A DNA stretch of 64,000 nt from Agaribacterium sp. ZY112 (GTDB lineage Bacteria; Pseudomonadota; Gammaproteobacteria; Pseudomonadales; Cellvibrionaceae), in NCBI RefSeq assembly GCF_041346925.1, contig NZ_CP166840.1, positions 1,488,001 to 1,552,000 on the forward strand, written 5' to 3'. Of the stretch, positions 6,905-19,413 are shown piece after piece. Below the pieces are notes generated by a model. It made no database searches. It was not told the DNA's origin and saw only the letters and a program-made list of their open reading frames with translations. Positions within the stretch are counted from its first letter, which is position 1. Every line of letters starts with the position of its first letter. The position numbers and the translations under genes are program-made.

Positions 6905-6929
6905 ACTGTACTTAAGATAAAAGTAGGCT

Positions 6930-7390
6930 GGGGGGATTTGATTCGCGCTATCCATGTTCCTCATTCTTCGAGCAGCCTTTGGCTGTGTAAAAATGCCTTC
7001 CTGCATTTTTATGAACCCCGCGTATGCAATTCAATTCCACTGCTTTCAGCAGCCAATAACTTACCCCAGGAATTGGGGGGATTTCATTCGGCACATCCAT
7101 GTGCCTCACTCTTCGAGCAGCCTTTGGCTGTGTAAAAATGCTTTCCTGCATTTTTATGAACCCCGCGTATGCAATTCAATTCCACTACTTTCAGCAGCCA
7201 ATAACTTACCCTGGGAATTAGGGGGGGATTTGATTCGCGCCATCCATGGCGCTCACCCCTTCGGGGCGACCTATGAGGTCGTCTAAAACGGCTTTCCTGC
7301 CGTTTTGTGAACCCCGGCGTATGCAATTCGAAACCACTGCTTTCAGCAGCCAATAAAAAACCCCAGGCCTTTCGGACTGGGGTTTTTTAT
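6930..7390 (+). repeat. Three tandem copies of a structured repeat
   Basis: Copies begin near 6931, 7076 and 7223 with a spacing of 145-147 bases. The first two are nearly identical and the third has diverged. Each begins with GGGGGATTT and carries an ATCCATG box, a first hairpin (CAGCC/GGCTG in copies 1 and 2; CGACCT/AGGTCG in copy 3), a second hairpin with constant loop YTTCCT (AAAAATGC/GCATTTTT versus AAAACGGC/GCCGTTTT), the box GAACCCCG, and a tail ending CTGCTTTCAGCAGCCAATAA. Stem sequences change on both sides while loops stay the same, so the fold appears to matter. The array abuts the left prophage attachment site. Confidence 0.85.
7355..7388. terminator. Bidirectional terminator, probably the original ssrA terminator
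   Basis: CCCCAG/CTGGGG stem with a 10-base loop, flanked by six A on the left and six T on the right, so it works in both directions. It lies just outside the left att repeat. Before prophage insertion it would have followed directly after the 3' end of ssrA on the minus strand. Confidence 0.85.
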
Positions 7391-7393
7391 TGG

Positions 7394-7421
7394 TTTGGTG
7401 GAGGCGGGGGGATTTGAACCC
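7394..7421 (-). repeat. Prophage attachment site (attL), copy of the ssrA 3' end
   Basis: These 28 bases match 19024-19051 exactly, including the CCACCA end and T-arm region of tmRNA. Homology stops abruptly at 7422, where prophage sequence begins, so this is the displaced original end of ssrA. Confidence 0.92.
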
Positions 7422-7539: not shown

Positions 7540-8238
7540 TCAATTTTGCTCGCTGGTTTGTACCATGTTTGTGACAAACTCCGGTTCTGTTTCTTTCCCT
7601 TCTCCGTTTTTCTTAAATACTGATATCGCATTTTCTAGTCTCTTGGCTGCGTCAAGCTGAAGCGTGTCTATAAAGGTGATAAATATGCCAATAATAGATA
7701 CGGTGATGATGGCTGAGGATGCAAATAAAAATCGAATGTTTTTGGCTGCATCAAAATCAAGAGGGGAGGTATAAATGGTCAATGGCAATGCCATCATTGC
7801 AATAAAGAAAAAGGTTAGACGTTTTCGTGAATTAATTTGTTTCTCTAGGGGGGGCATATTTGTCTTCAGCTCTGGATGGTCAGCATTTGGGGGGAAGTAG
7901 ATGTAGCGACGGCTTGTAATATAATCTCTATACATATGAATGGAATTTGGATAACGGTCAAAATAGTCAATTTCGTATGATGCCAAATCGCAATCGTATA
8001 AATAGCTGTACGCCGTTTCCTTAAAGGACTCATTACCCATATTATCCTTGGTGGAAAAGAAGGTTGATATAAATTCCATCTTCTCTTTTGTAAAGTCTAC
8101 TTTTCTATTCTTCTTAAGTTGGAAGTGCCTATACATTGAAAGAACTAGATAGAGTAGTCCTATAGCAAGAACTGACATGTTATTGGTAGTGAAAATAGCG
8201 TTAAGAACGCCGAAATTTGGTAGAGCTGTGATATCCAT
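7540..8238 (-). CDS. Prophage accessory membrane protein, unknown
   Basis: 232 residues, last gene before attL. One span near the N-terminus (MSVLAIGLLYLVLSMY), a soluble middle of about 100 residues rich in Tyr and Asp (SYLYDCDLASYEIDYFDRYP), then two spans (LTFFFIAMMALPLTIY and FLFASSAIITVSIIGIFITF) and a charged C-terminal tail. No family recognised. The position at the prophage end, after the non-coding region and away from the structural genes, is where filamentous prophages often carry cargo. A role in superinfection exclusion or host modification is possible but unsupported beyond position. Confidence 0.6.
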   Translation of the reverse strand: MDITALPNFGVLNAIFTTNNMSVLAIGLLYLVLSMYRHFQLKKNRKVDFTKEKMEFISTFFSTKDNMGNESFKETAYSYLYDCDLASYEIDYFDRYPNSIHMYRDYITSRRYIYFPPNADHPELKTNMPPLEKQINSRKRLTFFFIAMMALPLTIYTSPLDFDAAKNIRFLFASSAIITVSIIGIFITFIDTLQLDAAKRLENAISVFKKNGEGKETEPEFVTNMVQTSEQN

Positions 8239-8924: not shown

Positions 8925-10064
8925 TCATGCAGGATCAGCGCTTACTAACCCTTCAATAAAGCCCTTCGGTTCTTCGTGAGTTCGGCATAGTGCGTAGCCC
9001 TGATAGTCTTGGCCGCCAAGCTTAACCATGCAGTCGTTAACGATTTCAAATTCATACCCCAAGAATGTCAATTCTTCTTGGTTTAGGTGAACTATTGAAT
9101 TCGTGAAGTTAATTTCAAATATGTACTCGATCTTTGTTTTTCCGTTTGGGTATCTAGTGCTAAATCGCCCTGTAATAAACACAGAGTCGGCATCTGATAG
9201 AAAGCGATTTTCCTTTTTTCTTTTCTCCCTAACTTGGGGTTTAGTCGATATCTGGGACTGATCTGATGGCGGAGTGACTTGAGGTTGAATTGGTAGCGAA
9301 GGTGTAACAGCATATTTTGTGGGGGGCGATGAATAATGCCCAATTAAGTGCTGTACGCCATAATACAAGGCGGTCAAACTGAGGATGGCAAGTGCAAATC
9401 CAATTTTTATAGATAGCCGACCAAGTACTGAGAATCGATTATCTATTCTTGATTCATTGCCTGCTTCTCCTGATTTACTCTTTGTATGACTTTGGTATAG
9501 CTGAAATATTTCCTTTTTGAAGGACCCGTGTATCTCCCTTTCACGTTTTGATACAGGAGGTGACGCTCCGGTAACTGGGCCATAATATACATCTACTCTA
9601 TATCTAGAGCTAAACCCTAACTTTGACTGTTTTATTGTTCGGTATGTGGTTTCAACTAAGCTTCTTGCGAAGTTTGCAATCTGTCCAAGATCTTGCGTGA
9701 CCAAAACAATTTCTGTTGAATATCCATTTTCACCAACCATATGTCGGTGCTCAGCTAAAAATGACTTATCCTCCTGTCTTACGTTTTTTGCGTTTAATCC
9801 GGACGGCCAAAGCCTCCATAGTTCGTCGATGATAATTACCGATCCGGCGATAAATACATCTTCCCACCAGTTTGGGTTTTCAACAATGTCTTCAATTCGG
9901 AATTGTTTTACGGTCATGCCAAATCTTGATTGGCACTCTTCATCAATCATCGGGATATTGGTGAACACAACTCGAGAAGCTTCTAAGGCTGGGGCTATGA
10001 CATGTTCGACTACGCCATAGGTTTTTCCGTGCCCAGGCAGCCCAGTATAAGCAGATATAGTCAT
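8925..10064 (-). CDS. zot: Zot-family phage assembly ATPase (pI-like)
   Basis: 379 residues. The N-terminal cytoplasmic ATPase has Walker A GLPGHGKT (8-15) and Walker B SVIIIDE (75-81), followed by a VLVTQD sensor (119-124). A single membrane span lies at about 217-236 (LSIKIGFALAILSLTALYYG), after which the C-terminal 140 residues would be periplasmic. This is the standard layout of filamentous phage pI/Zot, which drives extrusion of the virion through the inner membrane. The start lies 3 bases after the stop of the preceding minor-coat gene. The name comes from a Vibrio protein reported to affect epithelial junctions; nothing here suggests toxin activity. Confidence 0.92.
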   Translation of the reverse strand: MTISAYTGLPGHGKTYGVVEHVIAPALEASRVVFTNIPMIDEECQSRFGMTVKQFRIEDIVENPNWWEDVFIAGSVIIIDELWRLWPSGLNAKNVRQEDKSFLAEHRHMVGENGYSTEIVLVTQDLGQIANFARSLVETTYRTIKQSKLGFSSRYRVDVYYGPVTGASPPVSKREREIHGSFKKEIFQLYQSHTKSKSGEAGNESRIDNRFSVLGRLSIKIGFALAILSLTALYYGVQHLIGHYSSPPTKYAVTPSLPIQPQVTPPSDQSQISTKPQVREKRKKENRFLSDADSVFITGRFSTRYPNGKTKIEYIFEINFTNSIVHLNQEELTFLGYEFEIVNDCMVKLGGQDYQGYALCRTHEEPKGFIEGLVSADPA

Positions 10065-12632: not shown

Positions 12633-14420
12633 TTATTGATATGAATCCAAGGCGACCCGCTTTCGCGGATCGCTTTGATCTATTGAATTTATAAAAGGGG
12701 AGTTTTGAAACTTGATTTCATCAATTACCTCAACGATCCCACTCATTATTTTCTGTTGTGCCGATTTAAGGTTTGGAGTGTCTTTAACTTCCCAGTAGTG
12801 AATTCGACTAATTACTGTCATTCCTCCGACTAGAAGGCCGATTACACGTTCAGACGCAGTGTCACCATATTTAGTAAATAGTTTCTTCTTAAGCTCGCCC
12901 GTTTCTTTGTCTAGGTTTTCGCTAGCTCCGTATGCAGGCCTAATAGACTGGTCTGTTCTTGAGACTATCGGCCCGCCCATAGCTTCAGTAAAAGCGGCCC
13001 AATCGTTAGATCGAGCAGCAATACGTAGCTTTTCTAATTCTCCCTCTTGTTCTGACAGGCGTCGTAATTCTCTCCAAACGGTCACGCTGGCACCTCCAAT
13101 CTGTTGGAATTGTCTAATTCGATGGGTTCTTGCCCATGCCTCAATACTCATGGCTATATCTGTGGCGTTTCGGCCAGACCAATCTTTAGAGTCTGATTCG
13201 TTGCAGTTGTTTACGCCGTGCCCGTCAATGTTTTTACAGACGTATTTAATTAGATAGCCTGTAGCTGAGTACTCTTTCCCTGTGGTTGGATTGGTACCGC
13301 TTTTAATTTCTTCCACTTTTAATCGCCGTTTTTTTGCTCCATTTTCATCTGGTGAATCTTGTAGGGCATAATGACGAAATATTTCTTCAACTTGTTCTAA
13401 GTTTTCTTTTGTGGCGAATAGCATGAAATGCCAGTGGGGAGTTCCGTCATGGTGTGGCTCTGCAATTCGGAAGCCATAAGGTTTAATAGATAGGCGGGAC
13501 AATTTAGCTTGTATTCTTGCCCAAACATTAGATAGGTATTTTTGCGCGTCTCTTGGGCTTAGATTTTCATATTTCTTGTTTGGAATAACTTTAATCATTC
13601 GTCCGTTACGAATGATTTTTGTCATTTTGTGAAATCGTGAAGGGGTGGTTAGAGTAATGAAGGCTGCATTATGTTTGTATGCTTTTGCAATAAGCTCAAA
13701 ACCTTTACAGCGAGCCAATAATTCAAACCGTCTTATCGCAGGATTGGAGACAGACTTGTCGGAGAGTTGAGCCAGTGTGAATTCGTCATTTTTCTCATTA
13801 ACTACAATAGTATTTTCTAGGTAGCTTCTACTTGCTTGTCTTTGTGATGTTCTCGTTGCTAACGTGATTGGGGAGCAATAAGGTGATGATTTTGCATTTA
13901 CCTGCCTTAAGTCCCTGGCTAGTATTTCTATGCGTTCGTTTTGCAGGTTCTTTAGCTTTCTTCTCCACCATCTTGAGCAACAAAGTCGGTTTATACATGA
14001 CTTATATGTCGCTCCCTTTTCAACGAAGGGTGGATCAATTTGATATGAATCTGCAATGCTACAAAGCTCGTCGTAACACTCTATTTCTATGTCATATTTT
14101 TTTGAAATGGATTGGCAGAATTCAGCTTTATCGTCTGCAAATGCTATTAGCTCTGAAAGGCTGGTTAACAACCAAAGATCGCTTACTGTAAGGTAGGCTT
14201 CTAGCTCCAGTAAACGAAGATTGGCTGAAGCATGCGATTTAGACTTGGCAAGGTGAAGATATTCTGCGCGAACGGCATTAGCCAGCATCCCGCAACGTTC
14301 AATAATACGTTTGCGAAACGGGGAGCACTCATTAGTGCCAAACTGCTCTAATGTAGTGTTTAAATGAAGGCGGCCGTCAAAATCAACGAATTGGCCAGCC
14401 TTGGTGGCATAAGCTACCAT
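12633..14420 (-). CDS. Rolling-circle replication initiator (HUH endonuclease, phage GPA type)
   Basis: 595 residues. HUH-endonuclease motifs are in order: motif 1 AAFITLTTPSRFH (252-264), motif 2 GTPHWHFMLF with metal-binding His329 and His331, and motif 3 SATGYLIKYVCKN with two tyrosines four residues apart (Tyr389, Tyr393). That paired-Tyr arrangement is typical of replication gene A proteins of the phiX174/P2 class. The protein nicks the phage plus strand to start rolling-circle replication. About 180 residues of helical sequence follow motif 3. The gene leads the virion-gene block. Confidence 0.9.
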   Translation of the reverse strand: MVAYATKAGQFVDFDGRLHLNTTLEQFGTNECSPFRKRIIERCGMLANAVRAEYLHLAKSKSHASANLRLLELEAYLTVSDLWLLTSLSELIAFADDKAEFCQSISKKYDIEIECYDELCSIADSYQIDPPFVEKGATYKSCINRLCCSRWWRRKLKNLQNERIEILARDLRQVNAKSSPYCSPITLATRTSQRQASRSYLENTIVVNEKNDEFTLAQLSDKSVSNPAIRRFELLARCKGFELIAKAYKHNAAFITLTTPSRFHKMTKIIRNGRMIKVIPNKKYENLSPRDAQKYLSNVWARIQAKLSRLSIKPYGFRIAEPHHDGTPHWHFMLFATKENLEQVEEIFRHYALQDSPDENGAKKRRLKVEEIKSGTNPTTGKEYSATGYLIKYVCKNIDGHGVNNCNESDSKDWSGRNATDIAMSIEAWARTHRIRQFQQIGGASVTVWRELRRLSEQEGELEKLRIAARSNDWAAFTEAMGGPIVSRTDQSIRPAYGASENLDKETGELKKKLFTKYGDTASERVIGLLVGGMTVISRIHYWEVKDTPNLKSAQQKIMSGIVEVIDEIKFQNSPFINSIDQSDPRKRVALDSYQ

Positions 14421-15586: not shown

Positions 15587-15644
15587 TGTCTGTTACTGAG
15601 ATTAAAGCGAATATGGATGTTTGGTTGTCTGGGGAGTATTGAAA

Positions 15645-16637
15645 TTGGCAATTCGCAAGGATGGCGATAAATGGCTTGTTGATATTCGCCCGAATGGCGT
15701 AGTGGGGCGACGGGTTAGAAAGAAATTTGATACTAAGTCTGAAGCCATTCGATTTGAAAAGTACCTGTTAGCAAAAGCTAGCTCTGACAAAGAATGGAAT
15801 GAGAGTAAAGCTGATCGTAGATTGCTCTCTGAATTAATTGAGATTTGGTACAAGCTTCTTGGTTATCAGCTGAAAGATGGGCTTCGTCGAAAAAACAAGA
15901 TGATTCACACTTGCGAGGGGTTGGGTGATCCTCGAGCAGAAAAGCTTACGCCAAAGATGTTTCTCAACTATCGATTCGTCAGGACGGAAGCGGGTATTTC
16001 CGGTAAAACCCTTAATAATGAGCTTTGCTATCTAAACAGCATGTATAACGGGTTAAAGGCGTCCGGAGAGGTTAGTTACTCAAACCCCTTGGGTGAAATG
16101 AAAATGCTCAAATTGGATGAGCGTGAATTATCATGGTTGTCGAGTGACGAAATTCAACATCTGCTAGGGACGATATCCAGCTTTTCTGAAAACCCACATG
16201 TACTGCTGCTGACAAAGATCTGCTTGGCAACTGGGGCTAGGTGGGGTGAGGCAGAAGCAATTACTCTTCGTAAATTATCGCAATATAAGCTTACTTTTTC
16301 TCAAACTAAGAGTGGCAAGGTTCGGGTCGTTCCGATATCAAAAGAATTGAATGATGAATTGGTTGAGCACTTGGAGGAATTCGATGTATTTGGCTCATCC
16401 ATTAGTGCGTTTAGGCGTGCTCTTGTTAGGTCAAAGATTCAATTGCCGAAAGGGCAGGCGGCACATGTATTGCGGCACACTTTTGCTAGTCATTTTATTA
16501 TGAACGGAGGAAATATATTGACGTTGCAAAAAATTCTTGGGCACTCTACGATCAATATGACAATGAGATATGCGCACTTGTCTCCCGACCATTTGTATGA
16601 AGCTGTATCATTGAATCCAATTGAAAATTGGTTGTAA
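15645..16637 (+). CDS. int: Tyrosine-recombinase integrase
   Basis: 330 residues from a TTG at 15645, chosen because GGGGAG lies 8 bases upstream and MAIRKDGDKWLVDIRP is the usual N-terminus of such integrases; TTG codons at 15621 and 15639 are also in frame. Catalytic residues: Arg199 (ATGARWGE), His274-x-x-Arg277 (HVLRHTF), His300 (LGHS) and nucleophile Tyr309 (MRYAHLSP). It presumably recombines the 28-bp core in the ssrA 3' end. Its last 30 bases overlap, on the opposite strand, the end of the hydrolase gene. Confidence 0.93.
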   Translation: MAIRKDGDKWLVDIRPNGVVGRRVRKKFDTKSEAIRFEKYLLAKASSDKEWNESKADRRLLSELIEIWYKLLGYQLKDGLRRKNKMIHTCEGLGDPRAEKLTPKMFLNYRFVRTEAGISGKTLNNELCYLNSMYNGLKASGEVSYSNPLGEMKMLKLDERELSWLSSDEIQHLLGTISSFSENPHVLLLTKICLATGARWGEAEAITLRKLSQYKLTFSQTKSGKVRVVPISKELNDELVEHLEEFDVFGSSISAFRRALVRSKIQLPKGQAAHVLRHTFASHFIMNGGNILTLQKILGHSTINMTMRYAHLSPDHLYEAVSLNPIENWL

Positions 16638-17516
16638 CAGCCCTGTAAAATACGATATTACTAAAGTGGTAGTTAGTACGAGGCAGAGTAAAAAACCAGG
16701 GAAGAGTCCTATAGCCTGAATGTGCCACTTTTCATCCGGCCTTTGAATGTCCCATTGGCTAGGCTCAATCTTTCCTTCGGTAAGAAACGGAAGCCAATAT
16801 TGAGAAATAAACTCTTTACTGAAAAAACCGTCGTGGCCAAAATTATGATGGCGGTCTGTGATTTCTGGATGATTAAACCCAAAACGACCTGATGCTCCGT
16901 AGCCAAATGTTGAAGATTTAGCCAGAACGGGCCATATGTCCTTTGTTCCGCAATCGTTTATGAAAAGGTTTTTATCTTGGCTTTTTAATGCTGGCCAGTC
17001 ATGGTTTTCGTCTACAATTGATCCGCAAAGTATAATTTTTTTGAAATTGAATTGCGGATTATGTTTAATAATTTTACTGAGTATGTAAGTCCCGTTGCTA
17101 TGTGCGACTGCGCATAATTCGGCACCTGGATGAGTACCAATAATGGTGTTTATTGCTCGCTGGACCTTACGAACTGGTGAGTTTCTGAAAAGCCATGGGA
17201 TTGGTATCCAGAATCTAATTCCGTCGAAAAATCCGTATTTGCAATGCCTTACTTCAAAATCTCCCGTTTTATTAATCTCGTTTTCAAGGAGGTTAAACCA
17301 CTTCCCTTGAGTTCTAATTCCATGAATTAGAACTACTATTTTTTTGGGGGGAGCGGGCAGCCCTGCAAGGGCAAGATCGATGAGTTGAGATAGCTCTTCT
17401 CTTTCACTTTGCGACGGTATTTGACTTAGGTAAGTCTTGGTGAAGGCAAATTTTTCAGAGTCTGAAACGTGTTTGTATAGCTCTAAAAATTTTTTGTAAG
17501 CCTCAGTTGCTGACAT
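16608..17516 (-). CDS. Alpha/beta hydrolase with C-terminal membrane anchor (cargo operon gene 3)
   Basis: 302 residues. A helical N-terminal segment (1-55) precedes an alpha/beta-hydrolase fold: oxyanion strand VVLIHGIRTQGKW (61-73), nucleophile elbow AVAHSNGTY with Ser140, and likely catalytic His among HHNFGHDG (223-230). The Asp is not certain (Asp188 is a candidate). A single hydrophobic span lies near the end (about 268-292, IGLFPGFLLCLVLTTTLVISYF), so the enzyme is probably membrane-tethered. Substrate unknown; a lipase or esterase is plausible. It starts one base after the stop of the 119-aa gene, as the last gene of the cargo operon. Confidence 0.75.
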   Translation of the reverse strand: MSATEAYKKFLELYKHVSDSEKFAFTKTYLSQIPSQSEREELSQLIDLALAGLPAPPKKIVVLIHGIRTQGKWFNLLENEINKTGDFEVRHCKYGFFDGIRFWIPIPWLFRNSPVRKVQRAINTIIGTHPGAELCAVAHSNGTYILSKIIKHNPQFNFKKIILCGSIVDENHDWPALKSQDKNLFINDCGTKDIWPVLAKSSTFGYGASGRFGFNHPEITDRHHNFGHDGFFSKEFISQYWLPFLTEGKIEPSQWDIQRPDEKWHIQAIGLFPGFLLCLVLTTTLVISYFTGLLQPIFNWIQ

Positions 17517-17517
17517 C

Positions 17518-17877
17518 TTAACCTGCAGCTGTTTTATAAATGACTTTGATTATGTCTGGAGTTACGTGTATGTCTTGCTCGCTTCTCCAGTCATAGATGT
17601 CTTCAGGGATTTCGGTTAAGTAAGGATAGTCCTTGATTCCTCCGTTATCGGCTTTAGATATTACGCGATAATGCTTCTGAAGAAACCCGATGCTCACCAA
17701 GGTGTTTAAAATATGGGTTAACGCATAAGTTGACGATGGAGTTGTTAATTCATATAAGCCGAATAGAGGGTACTCCCTCTTTTCTTCAGAAAAAAGGTTG
17801 AAAATACGCTCAATTGTATGTTCTTCATTTGGATACTTTTGTATTAAGTTTCCAAATTGTTGCGAGAGTATATTCAT
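17518..17877 (-). CDS. Cargo operon gene 2, unknown 119-aa protein
   Basis: 119 residues from the ATG at 17877 (MNILSQQFGNLIQK), which has GGA 8-10 bases upstream and overlaps the 3' end of the 343-aa gene by 53 bases in another frame. The open frame continues upstream, but that part is antiparallel shadow of gene 1. The segment THILNTLVSIGFLQKHYRVIS followed by YPYLTEIPEDIYDW resembles a winged-helix unit but is not a firm match. No catalytic motif or membrane span is visible. It may be a small adaptor or regulator between the two larger proteins. Confidence 0.65.
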   Translation of the reverse strand: MNILSQQFGNLIQKYPNEEHTIERIFNLFSEEKREYPLFGLYELTTPSSTYALTHILNTLVSIGFLQKHYRVISKADNGGIKDYPYLTEIPEDIYDWRSEQDIHVTPDIIKVIYKTAAG

Positions 17878-18856
17878 AGTTTTCCATCGTAACTTTTCTC
17901 CCCAAGCGAAATTCATTGGGGTGCCCACTAATAACCACGTTAATCGGGGAGTTAGGGGTGCTTTCGCCGTCCCTCTCGATAAACCAAAAATTACTATGCT
18001 CGCAATAGCTGTCATCTGTGCTAAACGAGTCAATAGCACCCTTTATGTTCTTATCTGACTTTAATGTTGCTGTTGGGTTCCCTGTCGCTGCCGTTAGGCA
18101 ATTTCCTTGCCCGTTTCGAATTGAACTTTTGGACTCTATAAGTATATCGTCAAGCTCTCCCTCGTCAGCCAAAGTTATTCGGTTTTTTATTGCGCTTAAT
18201 GAAACTTCGTTGAAGCTGTCAAAGTTAATTATATCTGAGATTATTGAAAGAGTGTGGTCATGTGCGGCTTTATAAGCGTCATTGGTCGAATGTGACGCAA
18301 TACGTAATTCAAGTAAGCCATTTTGGCTAAGTCGGACGATATTGGTAGCGCGAGTTTTGACCTCGTCATAGATCTTTGTCACCCTCCCGTTTTCCGATGA
18401 AGTCTCAGCTTCTTTCCTTGTGATGCGTGTCTCAGCAATTTTAAGTACCAAGAAGTCTTTGCTTTCTCTGGAGTCAATGCGGGCGTCTACCAGCTCCGGT
18501 GATTCGGGCAGCTCCAAGATGGCCGGGGATTCTAATAGCCCTTCCTTTCCTATTGTCTTGAGCGCTTCGGTTAGGTGCTTGGTAGTTACAAGATCATTTG
18601 CTGTTGTTGGAGAGCACTTATATAAAAAGACGTGCTGGCGCCCGTGTTCTTCAGTTTCTCTAAGAAATTGGTGCAGGTCGCTTAGTTTAAGGTTTCCGCC
18701 CTCTAGGGCTGGTACGACCCTTTCTTGAAAAAAGGTATTCCATGTGGAAGCTGATCGAGGTAGCCCATTTTGAGCTAGAAACTCTCTTGCTTCTGGGAGT
18801 GTCGCAGCTTCCCGTATTAGATTGAAGAGGAGCGTTTGTTTGGAAGTTTCTACCAT
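17825..18856 (-). CDS. Cargo operon gene 1, unknown 343-aa protein
   Basis: 343 residues starting MVETSKQTLLFNLIREAATL. The first 85 residues are helical (LREAATLPEAREFLAQNGLP, then EEHGRQHVFLYKC), and the middle is mixed alpha/beta (TRATNIVRLSQNGLLELRIASH, then a helical stretch NDAYKAAHDHTLSIISDI). The C-terminal part is strand-rich and ends FRLGRKVTMENYEY. No signal peptide, membrane span, Walker motif or clear nuclease motif is visible. It heads a three-gene overlapping operon between the integrase and attR. I do not recognise the family. Confidence 0.65.
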   Translation of the reverse strand: MVETSKQTLLFNLIREAATLPEAREFLAQNGLPRSASTWNTFFQERVVPALEGGNLKLSDLHQFLRETEEHGRQHVFLYKCSPTTANDLVTTKHLTEALKTIGKEGLLESPAILELPESPELVDARIDSRESKDFLVLKIAETRITRKEAETSSENGRVTKIYDEVKTRATNIVRLSQNGLLELRIASHSTNDAYKAAHDHTLSIISDIINFDSFNEVSLSAIKNRITLADEGELDDILIESKSSIRNGQGNCLTAATGNPTATLKSDKNIKGAIDSFSTDDSYCEHSNFWFIERDGESTPNSPINVVISGHPNEFRLGRKVTMENYEYTLATIWKLNTKVSK

Positions 18857-19023: not shown

Positions 19024-19051
19024 TTTGGTGGAGGCGGGGGGATTTGAACCC
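19024..19051 (-). repeat. Prophage attachment site (attR) inside the functional ssrA 3' end
   Basis: Identical to 7394-7421 over 28 bases. It covers the CCACCA end, the 3' half of the acceptor stem and part of the T arm, so insertion restores an intact tmRNA. Confidence 0.92.
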
Positions 19052-19413
19052 CCGTCCGTCAGCACTCGGCCTTCAGCTCTACATGTTTAGATCCGCTTAT
19101 TGATTTAACGAATAACGACCCAGCGGGCGGGGTGTTAAACGCTGGCCTGTTAAGTTTTAGCTGATCCACCCCAGGCAGGCTTCACTGCGATCCAGTTCTA
19201 GTTGACAGTCAGTAGCGCGGTACTGGCACCTTGCTAAGGACCGATAGCGGCGAACCGCTAAAAGTACTACAAAAAGCTACTTACGCAGCTAGTTGAGCAC
19301 CGTAGTTGTCATCATTGGCAACTGTAAAAATGCAGCTTTGGATTTACGTGATTCGCTACCCTCACGACATGCACATCAGGTTTTGTAACCGGCGTCGAAT
19401 CCTAATCGCCCCC
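19026..19413 (-). ncRNA. ssrA: tmRNA
   Basis: 388 bases including CCA. The 5' end GGGGGCG pairs with CGCCTCC before ACCA at the 3' end, forming the 7-bp acceptor stem with one G-U pair. GATTAGGATTCGACGCC near the 5' end is the conserved D-loop-like block, and GGGTTCAAATCCCCC the T arm. The mRNA-like frame at 19319-19281 encodes, after the charged alanine, ANDDNYGAQLAA and then TAA. The tag is longer than the E. coli AANDENYALAA by a Gly-Ala-Gln-type insertion but keeps the LAA end recognised by ClpXP. Together with SmpB (39850-40329) it rescues stalled ribosomes. A likely promoter upstream has TTGTGA and TATATA 16 bases apart. Confidence 0.95.

Follow-up and report, generated by a model that had tools for sequence, protein, structure and literature searches.

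A filamentous prophage of Agaribacterium sp. ZY112 carries, next to its integrase, three minus-strand genes that we interpret as a mobile phage-exclusion (abortive-infection) module transported as inovirus cargo, a reading to which we assign a probability of about 0.6. The prophage lies in a window of 64,000 nucleotides (contig NZ_CP166840.1, positions 1,488,001 to 1,552,000), and all coordinates below are counted from the first letter of this window. In the module, gene 1 (17825..18856, 343 amino acids, aa) would serve as a DNA clamp, gene 2 (17518..17877, 119 aa) as a coupling protein and gene 3 (16608..17516, 302 aa) as a membrane hydrolase. As stated in a preliminary description of this DNA, the first two genes overlap by 53 bases, the second and third are separated by a single base, and the operon occupies the space between a tyrosine integrase and the right attachment (att) core. 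The length given for gene 2 refers to its ATG start, and an alternative upstream GTG would extend the product to 173 aa.

The survey of homologue neighbourhoods that the preliminary description had proposed shows that the operon recurs elsewhere. A scan using 30 aligned hydrolases as query yielded 98 loci (18 from viral contigs and the best 80 of 91 from genomes), and in 28 of them homologues of genes 1 and 2 are found directly upstream in the same order, while the hydrolase occurs in other settings in the remaining 70. Starting from gene 1, we obtained 17 viral loci, ten with the full operon (eight contigs already known from the hydrolase and two new ones) and seven with a more distant gene 1 and no hydrolase within the stretch fetched. 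The resulting set of 30 operon records, 28 from the hydrolase and two from gene 1, includes 12 viral contigs and some redundancy, as L012 and L049 are apparently one locus and L050-L053 share identical gene 2 and scores. In all 30 records the overlap of genes 1 and 2 has the identical phase. Besides, the pairwise distances of the three proteins correlate with coefficients of 0.93, 0.94 and 0.90 across 24 loci, to which host relatedness could contribute, and none of 2000 permutations reached such values. Because gene order, overlap phase and co-divergence agree, the sequence data argue that the three genes form a real, conserved and co-diverging unit.

The operon is rare: in a sample of 398 genomes from the phylum, the window's own genome was the only one with gene 1. 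Gene 1 is absent from the phage and plasmid records at E<=1, its Pseudomonas homologue has no match in these records at E<=0.01, and gene 3 has none among the phage records at 1e-10. A protein search in 5.8 billion sequences, which requires shared 5-residue words, returned a single relative of gene 1 besides itself (25% identity) and nothing besides itself for gene 2; the relatives analysed here come from the locus scans.

In 12 of the 30 operon records the context points to defence: a P2 portal gene in seven, an integrase in three, a type I restriction system in one and a ScaI-type endonuclease with a methylase in one. The seven portal records represent six distinct loci (L007, L009, L011, L012/L049, L014 and L043), the portal being called by phrog_68 in L007, L011, L043 and L014 and by phmmer in the others, and a Dam-like methylase lies between operon and portal in L009, L011 and L014. 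A study on P2 places the antiviral hotspot of these phages in the cos-proximal region between gpA and the portal gpQ (PMC9122126); a gpA on the far side of the operon from the portal was not found when searched with the window's replication protein. In three viral contigs (L006, L008, L010) the operon is convergent with a tyrosine integrase and overlaps it, as in the window. In L023 it is embedded in a type I restriction system, between the specificity/methylase genes and a helicase-like (HsdR-type) gene, and in L025 it is preceded, beyond two intervening open reading frames (ORFs), by the gene of a ScaI-type endonuclease and followed immediately by that of a DNA methylase. In the other 18 records the ORFs examined included no recognisable portal gene, adjacent integrase or restriction neighbour; in one of these, L055, an integrase-like ORF occurs at a distance of about 5.8 kb.

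The element itself comprises 11.6 kb, is bounded by an exact 28-base repeat (left att core 7394..7421, right att core 19024..19051) and is inserted in the gene for transfer-messenger RNA (tmRNA; 19026..19413, minus strand), with the right core at the tmRNA 3' end. Judging from its proteins, it is an inovirus, since it encodes the expected Zot-like protein (8925..10064, minus strand; PF05707, 6.7e-22) and GPA-type replication protein (12633..14420, minus strand; PF05840, 3.8e-80; phrog_91, 1.9e-154). The integrase (15621..16637, plus strand; PF00589, 7.6e-21; phrog_1, 4.7e-71) is convergent with gene 3, and its 3' end shares 30 bases with it (16608-16637). One close relative, L121, was found in the viral contigs, with a replication protein 80% identical and a core that is collinear at the DNA level in blocks of 67-84% identity. 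L121 lacks the three-gene operon, and its slot beside the integrase holds an unrelated 423-aa ORF on the same strand as the integrase (L121:32-1303). In L122 (integrase 61% identical) a SocA_Panacea gene, scoring over its Pfam cut-off, and a 134-aa ORF lie between integrase and tmRNA, convergent with the integrase; in L203, whose integrase is 71% identical and interrupted by an internal stop and whose att core has one mismatch, the slot holds two convergent ORFs, 80 and 135 aa long (L203:2465-3115). Since genes 1-3 have no counterpart among these five slot ORFs (best E 0.85), the integrase-side slot carries differing genes in the three relatives examined. The proposal that the operon is cargo and dispensable for the phage is thus supported by the sequence comparison, because the collinear sibling L121 shares the core and lacks the operon.

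Gene 3 bears the features named in the preliminary description, namely HGIRT at residues 65-69, Ser140 within HSNG and a C-terminal hydrophobic span, whose best 19-residue mean is 2.3 in the window and exceeds 1.6 in 23 of 30 relatives. In alignments of 30 and 25 rows H65, G66, T69, H139, S140, G142, T143, G165, D193 and H228 are invariant; in a 101-row alignment S140 is likewise invariant, and H65, D193 and H228 are each conserved in at least 90%. S140 is therefore the likely nucleophile, with D193 as probable acid and H228 as probable base. The nucleophile elbow, acid and histidine, together with a family match to PF12146 (E 5.8e-6, score 26.2 against a cut-off of 27; matched at E<=0.01 by 65 of 101 relatives), place gene 3 in the alpha/beta hydrolase superfamily. 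A profile comparison with solved structures returned hemocyanins (E 8e-5 to 0.012), a transmembrane protein (0.0023) and an alpha/beta hydrolase (0.028), none of which was used.

A domain scan covering 101 of 104 gene 3 relatives detected prok_STING in three, EAD11 and DUF4384 in two each, and EAD1, TIR_2, TRADD-like, cNMP-binding and Response_reg domains in single cases, as well as a weak CARD domain (E 0.003) in one. Four relatives weakly match Tle3, a phospholipase model of type VI secretion (best E 6e-4), and PADLOC matches concern TIR, PDC-M60B/C, PDC-M14B and PycC models, mostly with one member each. Because relatives carry STING, TIR or EAD domains, the suggested role of gene 3 as abortive-infection effector appears plausible. 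The effector type as such is already known, since three publications (PMC7159879, PMC8195603, PMC10732462) describe alpha/beta-hydrolase effectors tied to STING, EADs and Death-like domains. One of them speaks of hydrolysis of membrane lipids by such effectors (PMC8195603), and membrane lipids may also be the substrate of gene 3.

The hydrolase family also occurs in other arrangements. Ten loci (L016, L017, L022, L067, L068, L071, L078, L080, L081, L085) encode hydrolases with an N-terminal domain that looks receiver-like by eye, preceded in nine by a second receiver-like gene, and are perhaps another signalling-driven effector system. In five planctomycete loci (L030, L032, L034, L045, L066) an ORF of 216-364 aa as fetched precedes and overlaps a fused hydrolase, possibly representing another two-gene hydrolase system.

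Genes 1 and 2 had been said to match no known family, which holds for sequence libraries and fails for the fold of gene 1. None of the three genes has a Pfam family above its cut-off, NCBIfam (E 0.16) and PHROGs (E 0.019 or worse) gave chance-level rows only, and the same applies to genes 1 and 2 compared with solved structures by sequence. Weak Pfam matches of gene 1 to Nuf2 and GMT-wHTH, both under the cut-off, were set aside. The structural model of gene 1, however, has the RdgC/CENP-N three-dimensional fold, and the protein is predicted to combine a SAP-like N-terminus with an RdgC/CENP-N/L-type DNA clamp; this prediction supports the earlier suggestion of a sensor-like protein. At the sequence level, PF04381 (the RdgC family) is not listed for gene 1 at E<=1 nor among the 17 families of 26 relatives, and the comparison of the gene 1 profile with 13 RdgC proteins (hhalign 0.4%) gives no sequence support. 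The 26-row profile reaches a probability of 1.0% against lambda RexA, and the RexA structure 8twq is not among the 50 fold-search rows listed for gene 1, which tells nothing either way. A separate RdgC is encoded elsewhere in the window's host genome. Gene 2 is a small protein, predicted to be a winged helix and, in line with the earlier proposal, a putative adaptor or regulator. Seven phage contigs (L103, L114-L119) encode a gene-1-like protein of SAP type, whose gene overlaps one for a winged-helix- or zinc-ribbon-like protein, and no hydrolase; in L103 this pair lies, by eye, downstream of a serine-recombinase-like ORF.

From these components we propose that gene 1 would clamp DNA and thereby sense replication intermediates or DNA that is invading or aberrant, and that gene 2, produced from the overlapping frame, would couple gene 1 to gene 3 or keep gene 3 silent. 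Gene 3, a putative serine hydrolase held at the membrane via its C-terminal span, would once released damage membrane lipids, and this damage would arrest the cell before a rival phage matures. Such a module would run like lambda RexA/RexB, the hydrolase replacing the RexB channel and a winged-helix component being added. More tentatively, and at somewhat below even odds, the operon might represent a three-component immune system of an undescribed type: a clamp of SAP and RdgC/CENP-N fold would recognise foreign DNA and, by way of a winged-helix partner, activate a lipase anchored in the membrane. This clamp and its partner would then be a portable DNA sensor that also exists in phages without this hydrolase, and the CENP-N/L fold would gain a bacterial immune role.

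Other explanations have to be weighed against phage exclusion. An addiction or lysogeny-control module that stabilises the prophage, with genes 1 and 2 serving chiefly as regulators that bind DNA of the element and restrain a toxic hydrolase, and with any phage protection as a by-product, is the strongest of them, albeit unlikely. It would suit the predicted winged helix of gene 2 and the presence of gene 1/gene 2-like pairs without hydrolase in seven phage contigs; lambda RexA is reported to bias a bistable switch, and the SocA_Panacea gene in the same slot of L122 belongs to a family that we take to be antitoxins or of the toxin-antitoxin class. In L023 and L025, however, the operon lies among restriction genes, with no prophage in the ORFs examined there. 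These two loci, together with the P2-like phages, also count against the less probable idea of lysogenic conversion, by which the operon would alter host lipids or the cell surface, affecting for example adsorption or virion extrusion, and its DNA-binding genes would control expression. A membrane-anchored esterase-like enzyme would be appropriate here, and inoviruses exit through the envelope; but the hydrolase relatives bear immune signalling domains, and the sibling inovirus L121 does without the operon.

A counter-defence module curbing host recombination or restriction seems improbable to us: restriction-gene neighbours would fit, and RdgC is reported to lower RecA activities, but one would not expect a membrane hydrolase akin to immune effectors in such a role. 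We give hardly any weight to a phage replication or structural module. RdgC-fold proteins do exist in phages; nevertheless, the collinear sibling lacks the operon and genes 1-3 have no PHROG family. The occurrence of the operon in unrelated phages and non-phage loci speaks against such a module as well.

Concerning the remainder of the element, a 232-aa membrane-like ORF (7540-8238, minus strand) between the left att core and the Zot gene had no notable match in the Pfam, PADLOC, NCBIfam and PHROG scans and is possibly a second cargo gene. Just beyond the left att core, 6929-7393 consists of tandem copies of about 145 bases, the last part being a 20-base inverted repeat (7350-7393). Two predicted promoters and three predicted terminators do not exceed the counts in shuffled sequence.

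If the operon is a phage-exclusion module, it would be a widespread relative of Rex whose output is an enzyme and whose winged-helix part is separate, making the question of Rex activation testable; PMC12894663 states that the activation of lambda RexAB is still unknown after 70 years and that described Rex-like systems number only five. One hydrolase family would then be seen wired to DNA-clamp, STING and EAD triggers, and the known antiviral hotspots would gain a cargo slot in filamentous phages.

With regard to known systems, the component types are familiar and their combination is apparently new, as it was not seen in our searches: PADLOC (2023 release) gave no family for genes 1-3 at E<=1, and the three-gene combination was not found in the open-licence literature, supplements excluded, so that an unlabelled listing elsewhere is possible. 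The CapV/patatin effector of CBASS (cyclic oligonucleotide-based antiphage signalling), invoked as precedent in the preliminary description, resembles gene 3 as a putative lipid-splitting effector, but presumably belongs to a different enzyme family. There is no cyclase among the three genes, and CBASS was rejected as an assignment after neither a PADLOC match nor a cyclase Pfam match was obtained. Comparable in type, whether or not they form one family with gene 3, are the alpha/beta-hydrolase effectors of conflict systems, which are fused to STING or linked to EADs (PMC7159879, PMC8195603, PMC10732462); STING, EAD and further immune domains also occur on gene 3 relatives. Gene 3, in contrast, is a stand-alone gene with neither STING nor EAD, beside genes 1 and 2, and an EAD-type system was set aside, with no EAD match in gene 3 at E<=1 and EAD1 or EAD11 in three of 101 relatives. 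KKP, described in PMC11341870 as a defence on filamentous Pf prophages, is comparable as cargo but consists of kinases and a phosphatase, proteins unrelated to ours. With RdgC (PF04381) and the kinetochore proteins CENP-N/CENP-L (Chl4/Iml3), gene 1 shares the predicted fold and conserved basic residues; it differs from RdgC in having no sequence-level match and in standing beside winged-helix and hydrolase genes.

The Rex systems (lambda, actinophages and RexAB of the P. putida prophage P1) pair a DNA-binding protein of RdgC-like fold with a membrane effector on a prophage, and our operon would do likewise, with gene 1 as putative DNA binder of predicted RdgC-like fold and gene 3 as putative effector. 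RexA is a DNA-binding dimer with an RdgC/Iml3-like fold (PMC11077077), and its triggering of RexB or RexBpp is proposed to result in membrane damage (PMC12894663). Our operon differs by a gene 1 without detectable RexA sequence similarity, by a hydrolase whose single hydrophobic span lies at the C-terminus in place of a multi-span channel, and by the additional winged-helix gene and the integrase-side location. Since both RexA similarity and a RexB channel were looked for and are lacking, it is no Rex system by membership; in its proposed way of working it is Rex-like, and RexA/RexB rather than CapV provides, in our analysis, the closest working precedent.
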